A stretch of DNA of 50,612 nt from assembly GCA_007134025.1 (NCBI GenBank), contig SLLR01000124.1, positions 1-50,612 on the forward strand, read 5' to 3'. Made by a program: the position numbers and the translations under genes. A model generated the notes under the pieces. The model was not told the origin of the DNA and did no database searches. It worked only from the letters and a program-made list of their open reading frames with translations. The DNA is from Desulfuromonadaceae bacterium (GTDB taxonomy: Bacteria > Desulfobacterota > Desulfuromonadia > Desulfuromonadales > Syntrophotaleaceae). Position 1 is the first letter of the stretch; each line of letters starts with the position of its first letter. Positions 40,395 to 50,612 of the stretch are shown here, piece after piece.

Positions 40395-40424
40395 TTGTCA
40401 TAGTATGGATAATCGGATTATATT
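40395..40424 (+). promoter_or_regulatory. Sigma-70 promoter of the HEAT/HD-GYP operon
   Basis: TTGTCA (40395-40400), 18 bases, TATATT (40419-40424), in an A/T-rich stretch. It would give a leader of about 130 bases containing the palindrome at 40488. Confidence 0.5.
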
Positions 40425-40487
40425 ATACCGGCAACGGCGAGACGGATCCTATCAGCGATATCTGACCGGATTTCTTTTTTTGTGCAA

Positions 40488-40507
40488 CCCGCAGAGTACT
40501 CTGCGGG
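40488..40507. promoter_or_regulatory. Perfect 20-base palindrome in the HEAT/HD-GYP leader
   Basis: CCCGCAGAGTACTCTGCGGG is a perfect dyad with no spacer, 52 bases before the HEAT gene start. No T-run follows on the plus strand, so it is not an ordinary terminator. It could be a dimeric-repressor site or an RNA hairpin. Confidence 0.6.
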
Positions 40508-40559
40508 CATATTTCCATGTCCCCAATCTTAATAAAACGGCAATCGGTGACGACTTCCC

Positions 40560-42203
40560 ATGCACGAAGTTCGCGACAACCATAAAGGCTTAGTTGCAGA
40601 GGTTCGGCTGGATCACGCGGCCATCGCCCTGCTTGCTTTCAGCAAGCTTCTCAAAGCCGTGCGCTTCTATCCTTCAAGTCATCCGACGGTCAAAGATGCC
40701 AGCCGGGAAGCTTTGCGCCATCTTTCGCCGTTGACCGGAACCCGAGGTCTCACCCTGACCGTAAGCAAGACCGGTTTTTTCTGGCAGGACGAACCCGTCG
40801 GAAGCGAATTTCCTGCCCTTCGGGAACTCGCTTTCCACTTTTTTTCCCGTCTGGTGCATCGCCTGTTGCTGCTTCCCGAGCTAACCGAGCACGAACTGGA
40901 ACTGTTCGCCCGTTGTGCCGGCAAAGAACCGGCGGAACTGAAACAGGCCGGCGGCCTTCAGGAACTTTTGCTGCGGCACCAGGTCACAGGCTTGTTTCTC
41001 AATGAGATTGATCTGCAGACCATTGAATCGCAACGGCAACGGGTACTCAACCAAAAAAAATACATCGACGGCGAATCTGCCTTTTTGGAGAGCAACCCCC
41101 AGGACCTTTCACCGGACCGGGCAGAGCACCTGTTATCCCCGGAGGCGCTGCTGGACAACCTCGCCGCCCTGCAACTCTCTCCGGCGGAGTTGCTCAGTCA
41201 ACTGGAACAGGAAAGCTCTGATAAGCGCTATCGGCTTTTGTGCCGTAAGCTGCTGTCCGCCCTGCAGCAAAGTCCCTATGAGCCGAGCATGGCAACCCAC
41301 TGTAAAGCCCTCTTGCTGCTGGCTCTGCACGGCGCTCAGCAAGATCGCGACAGCCGCCAGCGTCGGGCCGCCCTGGAAACTCTGAACGGGCTTGGCAGCC
41401 CGGAGCTGGTCAAAGCCCTTATCAACGCCCTGTGCGACAACCAGCAAGGCAAGAGCGTTCGCGCCACCCTGGTCAAGGCCCTGAAGGAACTTCAGGATAA
41501 AGCGGCCGTTGCCCTGGTAGAACGCCTGGCCCGCGAGGACAACTTTCAGGCCCGCAAACTCTTCTCTGAGACCCTGGTGCAACTCGGGGAGTGTGCCGTT
41601 GCGCCGCTGATCGAACGTCTGTCCGACAACCGTTGGTACGTCACCCGCAATGCGTTGTTGATTCTTGGCCGAATTGGTAACCCCAAAACAGCCATGCATA
41701 TTCGTCCCTATCTCGACCACCGAGACCATCGGGTGCGCCAGGAGACCGTGCGGGCACTGGGGCGTGTCGGCGGCCCCGTGGCCCTCAAGGGGCTCCTGCA
41801 GCTGGTCGAAAGCCGGGACCGGGAGTTGTGCTCCGCAGCACTAACAGCCCTGGGGTCAATGCAAAACGCAACGGCGGTTCCACCGCTACTGCGCCTGCTC
41901 TGCGCCTTTGATCCCCTGCTGAAAAACCTTGAGCTTAAACAGGGATCCATCAAGGCCCTGGGTGCCATTGGTGATCCGACAGCGATCCCTGCCCTGGTTA
42001 AGATCCTGAGAAAGCGCCGTTTCTGGGGACGAGAAAAGCATGAGACACTACGGTCCGGTGCGGCACAGGCGCTGGGCAATATTCCTGCGCAAGAAGCCAT
42101 TATTGCTCTTGAGTTTGCCGCCAAAGACACCTCTCCCCTGCTGGCCCACGTCGCCAAGGAAGCCCTGCTGAAACTTGTTGCAAGGATGCCCGATGAACAC
42201 TGA
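40560..42203 (+). CDS. HEAT-repeat protein with an N-terminal module shared with the adjacent HD-GYP protein
   Basis: 547 residues. Residues about 15-150 (FSKLLKAVRFYPSSHPTV, then VSKTGFFWQDEPVG) align along their length with the N-terminus of the next gene's product. From about 225 to 545 the sequence is a series of HEAT repeats with the alternating Arg/Ala/Leu pattern (for example RQETVRALGRVGGPVALKGL). No signal peptide or membrane segment is seen, so it is probably a cytoplasmic scaffold. It overlaps the HD-GYP gene by 11 bases. The coding call is secure, the function unknown; a role in c-di-GMP signalling is inferred from the partner. Confidence 0.88.
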   Translation: MHEVRDNHKGLVAEVRLDHAAIALLAFSKLLKAVRFYPSSHPTVKDASREALRHLSPLTGTRGLTLTVSKTGFFWQDEPVGSEFPALRELAFHFFSRLVHRLLLLPELTEHELELFARCAGKEPAELKQAGGLQELLLRHQVTGLFLNEIDLQTIESQRQRVLNQKKYIDGESAFLESNPQDLSPDRAEHLLSPEALLDNLAALQLSPAELLSQLEQESSDKRYRLLCRKLLSALQQSPYEPSMATHCKALLLLALHGAQQDRDSRQRRAALETLNGLGSPELVKALINALCDNQQGKSVRATLVKALKELQDKAAVALVERLAREDNFQARKLFSETLVQLGECAVAPLIERLSDNRWYVTRNALLILGRIGNPKTAMHIRPYLDHRDHRVRQETVRALGRVGGPVALKGLLQLVESRDRELCSAALTALGSMQNATAVPPLLRLLCAFDPLLKNLELKQGSIKALGAIGDPTAIPALVKILRKRRFWGREKHETLRSGAAQALGNIPAQEAIIALEFAAKDTSPLLAHVAKEALLKLVARMPDEH

Positions 42204-43515
42204 GCCATTACATCAGATCGTCAACGGATTTACCGGAGCCTGCAAAGGACTGCGCCTCTATCCACCCCGGCATCCAAGCATTCAGCGTCAGATTGAAAAA
42301 TTGCTGCAATTACTGCAAGCCCACCTTGGCTCCCGGGCACAATTCAAAATCGGCCTGTTGGAAGAAACCCTGTTCATTGACGATCAGCTGTTTGCCATTC
42401 AGACACCGGCCACAGAAGTCCTGACCGCCTTATTACAACGCCTGCAGATTGAAATGCTGGAATTTCACCAAGGACTTGAAGCGCAAGAGCTTCTCGCTTT
42501 TTTGCAGATTCTGGACGGACCAGTCGTCTTGGCTGAAGAATTGAAGCAGGTCTTTGAACGGCACCGCATCCGCCATATCCGTCTTGCGGAAAGCACCTCC
42601 GACGAAGACCGGGAACCTCGCAAGATCTACGGTCGGGCCATGACCGTCGTCAATGAGATTTTTCAGGATGTCCGCCTGGGACGCATCCCCAGTTCGGAGA
42701 AGGCCCGTCATGTAGTAAAAGACATGGCCAGGCTGACACTCGCTGAGCCCCATGCTCTTTTCGCCCTTTCCATGCTGAAAAGTTACGACAATTATACCTT
42801 TACTCACTCGGTCAATGTATCGGTGATCGCCCTTGCCGTCGGACGAGCCTGCGGTCTTTCCGAAACGGAGCTTCTCTGTATCGGGTTGGGAGGTCTGCTT
42901 CATGATATCGGCAAACTGAAAATTGACCTGAACATCATCAACAAGCCCGGTCGCCTGAGCGAACAGGAATTCTCCCAGATAATGCATCATCCCCGCCTGG
43001 GCGCGAACATGGTCCGCGAATCCGAGGGTGTTTCCGCCACGGTCGTCGATATTGTCCTCGGCCACCACCTGCGCTACGACCTGCAGGGTTATCCCGCCGA
43101 CGCCCGGCTTCAGGGGCCGATGAAACCGGTCCACATGACCGCAATTGCCGACTGCTACGATGCCATTACCACGCTGCGGGCCTATCAGCAACCGATCACA
43201 CCCCGCCAGGCAATCGCCAAAATGCTGGAAACCAGCGGTTCGATTCTGCACCCGGATTATCTGAATGCTTTTATGACTTCACTGGGCAATTTTCCCGTCG
43301 GTAGCATGGTGCGCCTGGCAAATAACGAAATCGGCCTGGTAACCCGGGTAGGCCGGGATAATACGGAAGAAATAGAACTCAAAATCCTCTTCAGTGCGCA
43401 AGGAGATCGCCTTGAGCAACCCCCCGTGCGCCAGCTTGGAAGCAACGACGGGCACCTTTTGGTCGCAGAAGTCGACTCCTTTATCAAAGGTGTGAACCCG
43501 GTGGATTTTTTTTAA
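42193..43515 (+). CDS. HD-GYP domain protein (putative c-di-GMP phosphodiesterase)
   Basis: 440 residues. The N-terminal module (about 5-130, with GACKGLRLYPPRHPSI) is shared with the preceding HEAT protein. The HD-GYP domain (about 190-375) has the metal-binding HD at 237-238 (LLHDIGKLK), HH in LGHHLRYD, and the GYP signature at about 299. The family hydrolyses cyclic di-GMP to GMP. ATG 42193 is chosen for AAGGA 6 bases upstream. The C-terminal 60 residues (VGSMVRLANNEIGLV) form a small beta-rich domain common after HD-GYP. Confidence 0.9.
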   Translation: MNTEPLHQIVNGFTGACKGLRLYPPRHPSIQRQIEKLLQLLQAHLGSRAQFKIGLLEETLFIDDQLFAIQTPATEVLTALLQRLQIEMLEFHQGLEAQELLAFLQILDGPVVLAEELKQVFERHRIRHIRLAESTSDEDREPRKIYGRAMTVVNEIFQDVRLGRIPSSEKARHVVKDMARLTLAEPHALFALSMLKSYDNYTFTHSVNVSVIALAVGRACGLSETELLCIGLGGLLHDIGKLKIDLNIINKPGRLSEQEFSQIMHHPRLGANMVRESEGVSATVVDIVLGHHLRYDLQGYPADARLQGPMKPVHMTAIADCYDAITTLRAYQQPITPRQAIAKMLETSGSILHPDYLNAFMTSLGNFPVGSMVRLANNEIGLVTRVGRDNTEEIELKILFSAQGDRLEQPPVRQLGSNDGHLLVAEVDSFIKGVNPVDFF

Positions 43516-43684: not shown

Positions 43685-44296
43685 TCATTCAGGCGTCGGG
43701 GAGCCGGCCTCTGGCTCGACCTGTAAAAATCCCAGGGCTTCGGCGGCAGCCGCCTTTATCGCAGGACTTGCCGCTTCAAGCAGTCGCAGCAGATCCACCT
43801 CGGCCGCCGGATCGCCGATGGCCGCAAGAGAGCGCACGGCACTTGTCACCAGAGCCTCGTCTTCCTCTACCAGCAGAGCCGACAGATAAGGCACCAGTCG
43901 CCGATCGGAAAAATGACCCAGGGCTTCAGCGGCGTGCACCCGCACCGCCGGATGCGGATCCTTGAGGTGCCGAACCATGTATTTGAGCATTTTTGGGTTC
44001 TTTTTTCGGCCCAGCACCTGAAGCGCCGCACCGCGCACATCCTGGTCTCGCGAGCTCAAGGCTTCAACCAGAGAGTCGTATATTTCCGGGCTGGCGATCT
44101 GCTCCAGAGCATAGATCGCTCGTACCTGCTGTTCCCGACTCCCGGTTTTGAGCAGACCGGCGAGCCCGGAAAATTCAGCCAGGGATTCCAGGCGCTCAAG
44201 CGCTGCGGCGGCAGCCTCCCGCACCCTGCGGTCGCTATCTTGCAGGGCCGAAGCAAGGGCGGCTTTTCTTTTTTTGAGCGCGGCAGTCTCTTGCAA
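43685..44296 (-). CDS. HEAT-repeat protein
   Basis: 203 residues built almost wholly of HEAT/PBS-lyase-type repeats (for example LVEALSSRDQDVRGAALQVL, then RHLKDPHPAVRVHAAEALGHF). Starts at TTG 44296, with GGAGGGTG just upstream. No enzymatic motif is present; it is likely a protein-binding scaffold. It converges on the HD-GYP gene, and the resemblance to the HEAT protein at 40560 is only at repeat level. Confidence 0.82.
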   Translation of the reverse strand: MQETAALKKRKAALASALQDSDRRVREAAAAALERLESLAEFSGLAGLLKTGSREQQVRAIYALEQIASPEIYDSLVEALSSRDQDVRGAALQVLGRKKNPKMLKYMVRHLKDPHPAVRVHAAEALGHFSDRRLVPYLSALLVEEDEALVTSAVRSLAAIGDPAAEVDLLRLLEAASPAIKAAAAEALGFLQVEPEAGSPTPE

Positions 44297-48050: not shown

Positions 48051-49325
48051 CTAAGGCGAAAATCCCGACGGCTCGAGGAACCGCTTTGTTACGGGTTCAC
48101 AGCTGGCCGCCGTTCCCGTCCCGGTCCCGGTCCATCTGCGCAGCTGATTGCGCCCCGCTTTTTTGGCTGAATAAAGGGCCTTATCGGCCTGTTCGAGCAG
48201 TTCGTCAAAGCTATCCATCCCGGTTGCCGGCGCGGTAGCTATGCCGAGACTCGCCGTAACCCCGAGGGGAATGCCTGCATGGAGCACAACGGACTGCTCA
48301 ATGGCTCCGAGAATCCGACAACCCAGCGCATGGGCCGCTTCCGATCCGGTTTCCGGCAGCAGCACCGCAAACTCCTCGCCACCGTAACGGCACACCGTAT
48401 CAGTACCGCGCACAGTTTGAAGCAGGGATCGGGCCACTGTCCTCAACACCCGGTCTCCGGCTCGATGGCCGTGACGGTCGTTGAATTGTTTAAAGTGATC
48501 AATATCGAACATCAGCAGACTCAAGGAATGGCCATTGCGCCGATGCCGCGCCCATTCTCTCTCAGCCAAGGGGAAAAAGCTTCGCCGATTGGCCGCTCCG
48601 GTCAACGGATCGGTCTGGGCCAGCGACTCCGCCAACCGCCTTTCATCTTCAGCCACGGCCAAGGCCTTCTGAAGAGCTTGCGCCTGATGCTTAATGGTCC
48701 GGCGCTGCAGAAAAGCCCGGCGTTCCATTCGGTTAAGCCCATAGCAGCCGAACATTCCTGAAAGGTTGAAAAAGAAAAAAATGTAAGAACTGCCGATGAG
48801 AAACTCCCGAGTAAGGTCGCAATACAGGAAGACGACAACCTCGTAAGCCACAAAGGTCGTCCAGGCGATCAGATTGGGAAGCAGCCATCCGGGGAGAAAC
48901 AAATAATAGAACAGAACGCAGAGCAGCAACCCACCATAATAAATGTGGTTTGCGGGTGGCCCGGCAAGGGCGATCATGGCGATGATTCCCAAACTCGCCA
49001 GCCCGCCGTTGATCAGGAAGATGGTGGCCTTCTTTTTTGCGCCGACACCGGTAAAGCTCAGAACAAAAGACAGGAGCAGGGCCGGACACACCACGGCAAA
49101 ACGAATAACCAGGCAGAGCCACAGCAGATCGGGCAGCAGTTGCTGATCCAGAAGATAAAAGATGGCGTACATTCCGGCACCGACCACGGATGTGAAACGC
49201 CACCTTCGAGTTTCCTCGGTAATAATTTCCCGGCGATACTCTTTTTCAAGATCACACCCCCGAAATCGCAGACTCAGGGGGCGCAGGGCGTCTTCGCGCC
49301 GCGCTGAACGTCTCACCTTTAACAT
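48051..49325 (-). CDS. Membrane diguanylate cyclase (GGDEF)
   Basis: 424 residues. About six hydrophobic helices fill residues 45-205, a short coiled coil follows (about 210-245), and the GGDEF domain is at about 248-405. The active site reads GGEEF, so the enzyme should make cyclic di-GMP from GTP. An RxxD inhibitory site (RGTD) stands at the standard position before it. The ATG at 49325 has a GGGGAAAAG site just upstream; starting earlier would overlap the preceding gene. It follows the GGDEF/HD-GYP gene by 44 bases and is probably co-transcribed. Confidence 0.92.
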   Translation of the reverse strand: MLKVRRSARREDALRPLSLRFRGCDLEKEYRREIITEETRRWRFTSVVGAGMYAIFYLLDQQLLPDLLWLCLVIRFAVVCPALLLSFVLSFTGVGAKKKATIFLINGGLASLGIIAMIALAGPPANHIYYGGLLLCVLFYYLFLPGWLLPNLIAWTTFVAYEVVVFLYCDLTREFLIGSSYIFFFFNLSGMFGCYGLNRMERRAFLQRRTIKHQAQALQKALAVAEDERRLAESLAQTDPLTGAANRRSFFPLAEREWARHRRNGHSLSLLMFDIDHFKQFNDRHGHRAGDRVLRTVARSLLQTVRGTDTVCRYGGEEFAVLLPETGSEAAHALGCRILGAIEQSVVLHAGIPLGVTASLGIATAPATGMDSFDELLEQADKALYSAKKAGRNQLRRWTGTGTGTAASCEPVTKRFLEPSGFSP

Positions 49326-49369
49326 TTCTTTTCCCCGCGGCAACAAGCCGTTGCAGCAGCCTTCCCTCA

Positions 49370-50612
49370 CTATCGTTGGCAAAGGACTCCTTTTTTTTCT
49401 TCCGAGGAAGTAATTTGCGAATCCCGGGATGCCGCCACAACCCCAATAAAAAGCGGCACCAACTCGGGATCGAACTGGGTCCCGGAACAACGCCTCAGTT
49501 CCTCCACCACCTTTTCCCGAGGCAGTCCCTTGCGGTAGGGGCGATCGCTGATCATCGCGTCAAAGGCATCAGCTATGGCCAAGATACGACACTCCAAAGG
49601 AATTTTATCTCCGGCCAACCCCAAGGGATAGCCGCTGCCGTCCCACCACTCGTGATGCTTGTAGATCCAGTCGGCAATAGGCACCAGATCAGGAGACGCT
49701 TGAGCGATGTGATAGCCGATGGCACAGTGCTGCCGCATGGCGAGAGTCTCTTGCGGAGTGAGTTTATCCGGTTTGAACAGAATCTGGTCCTTGATTCCAA
49801 CCTTGCCGATGTCGTGAAATTTAGCCAGCAGACGCAGATCGTGGATGCGATGTTCGGAAAGGTCCAGTTCCCGAGCCAGGGCTACGACCATGGATTCGAG
49901 CCGATCCGCGTGACCCTCGGTGATGAAATCCCGCGCTTCAAGTGCTCTCGCCAGAGTCTGTACCACGGCGCTTCGATTGCTTTGGCTGCGATGCAGTTTT
50001 TCCCGGGACATATTGTTGTCCGCGGCGATAAAAAGATCGCGTATTTTTTGATCCGGTTTTTCTCGGGCAGCAAACCCTACCGACAGGCTCAAGGGCAGAT
50101 CGGAATTGGCCCGGTTGTGCTGCAGGGCACTGTCCTTGATTCGCTCGGCGGCTTCAGCAACATTCAGAGACCCATTTGCTGTGAGCAGAACAGCGAACTC
50201 GTCCCCGCCCACCCGGGCGACAATGCCCCCTTTGCCGAACAGACCCTGCAGCATACCGGCGACCTGAACGAGAAGCCGATCTCCCGCAGAATGGCCCAGA
50301 GTATCATTGACCAGTTTAAGGCCATCAAGATCACAGACGATCACCCCGCCGCAATCCGATGTGCTCACTTCTTGACGCATCATCTCCCGTTCGAAAAAAT
50401 TACGATTGAACAGCCCGGTGAGGTGGTCGTGAGAACTGGTAAAACGCAGCTCTTCCTCCATGCGCTTATGCCGGGACATATCCACGTCCATGCGCATGAA
50501 TTCACTTACCCCTTTTAGTCCCCCGACGGGCAGAACAAAGGACAGCACGCTCTGCGGCGGCCCGAAGCGATTGGGTACTTCCCCCTCCCACACCTGCCGT
50601 TCTCCCGCCAGC
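49370..50612 (-). CDS. GGDEF plus HD-GYP protein, N-terminus cut by the window edge
   Basis: At least 413 residues are visible and the frame stays open to the right edge. The first visible 45 or so resemble the end of a PAS domain (VLPVGGLKGVSEFMRMDVDMSRHKR). The GGDEF domain follows with an intact signature (RVGGDEFAVLL) and DLDGLKLVND metal site. The HD-GYP domain has LAKFHDIGKVGI and HHEWWDGSGYPLG, also intact. Synthase and phosphodiesterase modules in one polypeptide suggest a switchable c-di-GMP enzyme; which activity dominates cannot be told. Confidence 0.93.
   Translation of the reverse strand, partial: LAGERQVWEGEVPNRFGPPQSVLSFVLPVGGLKGVSEFMRMDVDMSRHKRMEEELRFTSSHDHLTGLFNRNFFEREMMRQEVSTSDCGGVIVCDLDGLKLVNDTLGHSAGDRLLVQVAGMLQGLFGKGGIVARVGGDEFAVLLTANGSLNVAEAAERIKDSALQHNRANSDLPLSLSVGFAAREKPDQKIRDLFIAADNNMSREKLHRSQSNRSAVVQTLARALEARDFITEGHADRLESMVVALARELDLSEHRIHDLRLLAKFHDIGKVGIKDQILFKPDKLTPQETLAMRQHCAIGYHIAQASPDLVPIADWIYKHHEWWDGSGYPLGLAGDKIPLECRILAIADAFDAMISDRPYRKGLPREKVVEELRRCSGTQFDPELVPLFIGVVAASRDSQITSSEEKKGVLCQR

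Follow-up and report, generated by a model that had tools for sequence, protein, structure and literature searches.

In a cell with about 20 GGDEF genes, it is an open question how separate c-di-GMP signals are prevented from mixing. Local complexes are a leading answer, and to our knowledge a common domain that recruits proteins into such complexes has rarely been found. The described systems closest to the locus analyzed here are the HD-GYP phosphodiesterases PmGH (PDB 4mcw), PA4781, and V-cGAP3, the last a cGAMP phosphodiesterase. Tyrosine or phenylalanine at the site of PmGH residue E185 marks a predicted binuclear subgroup, and Bd1817 of Bdellovibrio (PDB 3tm8), in which the GYP tyrosine is absent, is inactive (PMC4159591).

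The window, which is the whole 50,612-nucleotide stretch of DNA that was analyzed, is contig C119 of a 2.25-Mb genome, and its nearest homologues are in Desulfuromonadales. The features of the locus are as follows.

40560..42203, plus strand: HEAT-repeat protein of 547 aa (open reading frame; Pfam HEAT_2 at 125.5 bits; model with mean pLDDT 92.4)
40602..41054, plus strand: N-domain of the HEAT protein, the 'LYPxxHP' domain (N-domain alignment; hhalign against the HD-GYP N-domain, 99.6%)
42182..42186, plus strand: AAGGA, ribosome-binding-like, 6 nt 5' of the HD-GYP start and within the end of the HEAT coding sequence
42193..43515, plus strand: HD-GYP protein of 440 aa from the ATG at 42193 (open reading frame; Pfam HD_5; model with mean pLDDT 88.6; catalytic residues invariant)
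42199..42624, plus strand: N-domain of the HD-GYP protein (N-domain alignment; hhalign)
43685..44296, minus strand: small pure-HEAT protein of 203 aa (Pfam HEAT_2 at 154 bits), convergent with and downstream of the pair

Both open reading frames of the pair were confirmed on the plus strand, together with the 11-base overlap between them given in the preliminary description. The HEAT protein consists of an N-domain (residues ~18–150), a disordered linker (174–191), and a HEAT solenoid (~194–542); its HEAT_2 match covers four stretches and exceeds a cut-off of 27.7 bits, the model contains a helical solenoid, and a structure search with the full-length model matched alphaRep HEAT-like solenoids with a Z score of 22.7. 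The HD-GYP protein consists of an N-domain (~1–133), a helical linker (142–192), the HD-GYP domain (~198–366), and a C-terminal beta domain (~372–427), with Pfam scores of 56.8 bits for HD_5 (cut-off 27.2) and 55.1 for HD (cut-off 22).

Upstream of the pair lies a divergent gene that we take from its sequence to be coaE. Of 56 testable loci in the order, 44 have the small pure-HEAT gene just downstream of the pair; whether it belongs to the same system is uncertain. About 5 kb from the pair, a GGDEF gene (48051–49490, minus strand) and a GGDEF-HD-GYP gene (49370–50593, minus strand) have open reading frames that overlap by ~120 bases. No Rfam RNA, riboswitches included, reached the gathering threshold within the window. 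A promoter at 40395, where the region singled out in the preliminary description begins, was discarded, as the single promoter-like match was not above chance (1.6 in shuffled sequences), and so was a defense system, for which PADLOC returned only weak HEAT-type and Cas3-HD matches.

The two proteins begin with homologous domains. A direct local alignment of HEAT residues 27–149 with HD-GYP residues 13–133 scored 59, compared to 31.4 ± 5.3 for shuffled sequences, of which 2 in 2000 scored as high. When N-terminal profiles were grown separately from HEAT proteins only (HEATN) and HD-GYP proteins only (HDN), with no mixing, the HD-GYP protein of the window was found by the HEATN profile (E 9e-22) and, conversely, searches with the HDN profile recovered HEAT proteins at E values down to 6e-24. 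Profile–profile comparison of HEATN with HDN by hhalign gave 99.6% (E 4e-24, 137 columns), whereas a control with reversed columns gave 0.7%. The shuffles, the independent profiles, and the reversed control rule out chance or low-complexity similarity, and the homology of the first ~135 residues, suspected by eye in the preliminary description, is established at the level of sequence. The details of that earlier reading also hold: the LLKxxR/LxYPxxHP block is genuine, with tyrosine and histidine invariant and proline in at least 90% of 79 N-domains of both kinds, and the helices and strands follow the same HH-EE-H-E-HH-E order in the two predicted models. The tyrosine and histidine are the sole invariant residues of LYPxxHP across these 79 domains.

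Database searches did not place the N-domain in a known family. The first ~135 residues of neither window protein matched Pfam; in searches with the 79 N-domains at E 0.1, any one Pfam-A family matched at most 2 of the 79 and any one NCBIfam model at most 3. A search of PDB sequences with the N-domain profile returned only short, chance-like matches, and Bd1817 was absent from those listed. Structure searches used full-length models, and the matches listed for them correspond to the HEAT and HD parts. The preliminary description knew of no system with such a layout, and we found no description of a HEAT/HD-GYP pair in the literature covered, which excluded most subscription journals. The N-domain looks like an undescribed signaling module, mostly linked to HEAT repeats.

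A survey of genomes addressed whether the pair is peculiar to this organism. Across 80 loci from species genomes, a HEAT gene stood directly before all 78 HD-GYP genes with enough upstream sequence; 11 other HD-GYP genes, which start less than 920 bases from the edge of a contig or stretch, are outside this count. Hosts of the pair include Desulfuromonadales, Acidobacteria, Omnitrophota, and one Myxococcales MAG, and this occurrence across the order and in other phyla rules out a purely local arrangement. Of 58 genomes sampled in the order, 57 had N-domains. Among the matches listed, 49 of the 58 had tandem N-domain frames 1.53–2.18 kb apart, adjacent pairs in four further genomes were verified from sequence, and an adjacent pair occurs in at least 53 of the 58. 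In wider samples, the N-domain was found in 63 of 148 genomes of the phylum, 13 of 50 genomes in a sample reached via Acidobacteria, and 16 of 48 in a sample reached via Omnitrophota.

The pair comes in two forms, a HEAT protein of 520–590 aa with an HD-GYP protein of ~445 aa, and a HEAT protein of 720–790 aa with an HD-GYP protein of 390–430 aa. The genome analyzed here holds one pair of each form, on C119 and C126, and these two adjacent pairs account for its only four N-domains; the genes of the C126 pair overlap by ATGA. Among 101 pairs measured, 79 can overlap, 43 of them by exactly 4 bp, although these counts use the nearest in-frame start and are therefore biased toward overlaps. No fusion of the HEAT and HD-GYP genes was found that would prove contact. 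The partnership is not absolute, because four HD-GYP proteins carry the N-domain without a HEAT neighbor (L106–L109), and two genomes of the order (L110 and L111) have an intact HEAT gene with an HD-GYP gene that is either cut to its C-terminal part or missing (L110:4969–5379 and L111). The genomes with lone HD-GYP proteins have intact pairs elsewhere; therefore, partners in trans are possible.

The two genes have also evolved together. In a tree of 131 N-domains, in which many forks are unresolved, the HEAT and HD-GYP labels require only three changes over 110 rows; therefore, the split between the two kinds of N-domain is old, and pairs have been copied and spread as units. Acidobacteria contain HEAT-HD-HEAT-HD arrays. 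At 37 loci, evolutionary distances of the HEAT and HD-GYP proteins correlated at 0.83–0.91, as tightly as distances between the domains within each protein (0.87 and 0.83), whereas correlations with the neighbors CoaE or IclR were lower (0.51–0.71). Partial correlations given CoaE and IclR, two neighbors that represent the species tree only imperfectly, were 0.67 between the N-domains and 0.82 between the C-terminal parts, and the value for the N-domains was still 0.30 once the C-terminal parts were also removed. None of 2000 permutations was as high as any of these partial correlations.

Outside the order, the N-domain is found in other architectures. Nine loci encode GGDEF-AAA_16-N(-N)-HEAT proteins of 1180–1450 aa, most of which, among eight inspected, have an AGDEF motif and a Walker A motif. 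One of these loci (L126) has two such genes in tandem, and at another (L128) the gene immediately downstream encodes a DUF4388 protein. Some of these proteins contain tandem N-domains, which do not consist of one HEAT-type and one HD-type copy. Three N-HEAT-cNMP_binding-PilZ proteins of 918–1680 aa (L129, L131, and L139) have the PilZ RxxxR...DxSxGG residues; at L129 and L131, the next downstream gene starts with similar sequence. In the sample centered on Omnitrophota, three proteins are N-PAS-HisKA-HATPase kinases (L151, L152, and L154) with which a fourth (L153) aligns; in all four the N-domain is N-terminal, and they have a middle region of their own of ~250 aa. The same sample includes a 23,632-aa open frame that ends in an N-domain and then HD-GYP (L146:2698–8001; G304:C13). 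Lone N-HEAT proteins and short N-only proteins also occur, at loci such as L136, L145, L147–L149, L155, and L156. These varied architectures thus suggest that the N-domain is a signaling module, most often tied to HEAT repeats and c-di-GMP chemistry.

The explanation that we favor, with slightly better than even confidence as a whole, is that the HEAT and HD-GYP proteins would be subunits of one signaling complex. In such a complex, the HD-GYP protein would act as a binuclear-metal cyclic-dinucleotide phosphodiesterase, most likely on c-di-GMP, and the HEAT solenoid would be its dedicated partner, positioning or gating the enzyme and docking the complex on a target. The N-domains would have diverged long ago from a common ancestor and would most likely pair across the two proteins. 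The parts of this explanation differ in strength. The pair travels together across several phyla, so it is probably one machine, and a physical complex of the two proteins is likely; a role of the HEAT protein as scaffold or gate is fairly probable; and contact through the N-domains is about an even call. Tandem N-domains in the GGDEF-AAA-N-N-HEAT proteins are expected if two N-domains pair, but the fact that they do not combine a HEAT-type with an HD-type copy counts against it, as do the lack of a fusion among the pairs and the exceptions to the partnership. The preliminary description proposed that a shared module lets a HEAT scaffold and a phosphodiesterase assemble: the shared module is borne out, and the evidence for assembly is indirect, from gene overlap, co-duplication, and covarying rates. 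More tentatively, and with the odds somewhat against it, the 'LYPxxHP' domain may be an undescribed and mostly HEAT-linked chassis on which maker (GGDEF-AAA-N-N-HEAT), breaker (N-HD-GYP with N-HEAT), and receptor (N-HEAT-cNMP-PilZ) would be brought together on HEAT solenoids by their matching N-domains, so that signaling is local.

A sensing role for the N-domain fits as well, because the domain heads histidine kinases and some HD-GYP proteins without a HEAT neighbor, and it is the main rival to a heterodimer of N-domains. If the N-domain bound a ligand, the HEAT and HD-GYP proteins could each read the same signal without a stable contact between their N-domains, the one responding by binding a target and the other by breaking down the messenger. 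As is typical of sensor domains, the N-domain precedes varied outputs (HD-GYP, HEAT, HEAT-cNMP-PilZ, and PAS-histidine kinase), and the invariance of its tyrosine and histidine in both kinds and the existence of solitary N-HD-GYP proteins point the same way. We nevertheless consider this alternative rather unlikely, since the N-domains of the genome analyzed here occur only in its two adjacent pairs and the two proteins covary like one, beyond the need of two independent readers.

As to the enzyme of the proposed complex, residues H205, H237, D238, K241, H266, H291, H292, G299-Y300-P301, and D320 are each invariant in the 71 aligned HD-GYP sequences. Y201, also present in 71 of 71, occupies the site of PmGH E185, which places these proteins in the predicted binuclear subgroup rather than in the trinuclear E/D-T-G subgroup, whose members have glutamate or aspartate at this position. 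In the HHExxDGxGYP motif, the two histidines and the G, Y, and P are invariant, the aspartate is kept in 61 of 71, the glutamate is replaced by leucine in 61 of 71, and the glycine of DG is mostly arginine or leucine. The invariant metal ligands make it probable that the protein is an active binuclear cyclic-dinucleotide phosphodiesterase, one that has the HEAT protein as its dedicated partner. With 20 matches to GGDEF and 7 to PilZ, the genome has a c-di-GMP network, and membership in the HD-GYP family makes c-di-GMP the likely substrate. Leucine at the HHE glutamate, a peculiarity of this family, means that substrate choice could differ from that of classical enzymes. With the architecture otherwise as proposed above, the HD-GYP protein might degrade a different cyclic dinucleotide, for instance 3',3'-cGAMP. 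We regard this as improbable, because GGDEF proteins with an N-domain mostly keep GHxxGD, the usual c-di-GMP form, and PilZ proteins with the same N-domain point to c-di-GMP. For cGAMP speak the leucine just described, the match of the HD-GYP part to V-cGAP3 (7.6e-38), nearly as good as that to PmGH (4.4e-40), and the cGAMP signaling known in Geobacter, a relative (PMC8835794).

It is very unlikely that the genes are only co-transcribed and co-inherited, with a HEAT protein that serves an unrelated process and an N-domain left as a relic of duplication: the generally strong synteny around the locus and the two genomes that keep HEAT without an intact HD-GYP gene would fit, but equally syntenic neighbors correlate less, and plain synteny does not explain why pairs recur at other loci, in other phyla, and in tandem arrays.

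Compared to PmGH, PA4781, and V-cGAP3, the HD-GYP protein has the same catalytic domain, and 7 of the 8 metal ligands of PmGH, as listed in PMC4159591, are invariant. Unlike these enzymes, it has tyrosine at the E185 site and is thus predicted to be binuclear, most members have leucine at the HHE glutamate, and the catalytic domain is joined to an unnamed N-domain and encoded beside a HEAT partner that bears the same domain. Bd1817 was the best structural match of the HD-GYP model (Z 23.8, 220 aligned residues, rmsd 3.1); unlike in Bd1817, the GYP motif is intact in 71 of 71 HD-GYP proteins with the N-domain.

The scaffold and phosphatase of PP2A-like systems likewise combine a metallohydrolase with a HEAT solenoid of its own, although by analogy only, as the enzyme and HEAT sequences of such systems are unrelated to those described here and are not known to have an N-terminal domain in common. 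For the separation of c-di-GMP signals, the proteins with an N-domain provide a concrete and testable set of partners, and many genes annotated as 'hypothetical HEAT repeat' gain a likely role. In several phyla, the same unnamed domain is carried by synthases, by a phosphodiesterase and its dedicated partner, and by PilZ receptors. The newer and wider point, beyond the preliminary description, is that proteins that make, break down, and sense the messenger have this domain in common.
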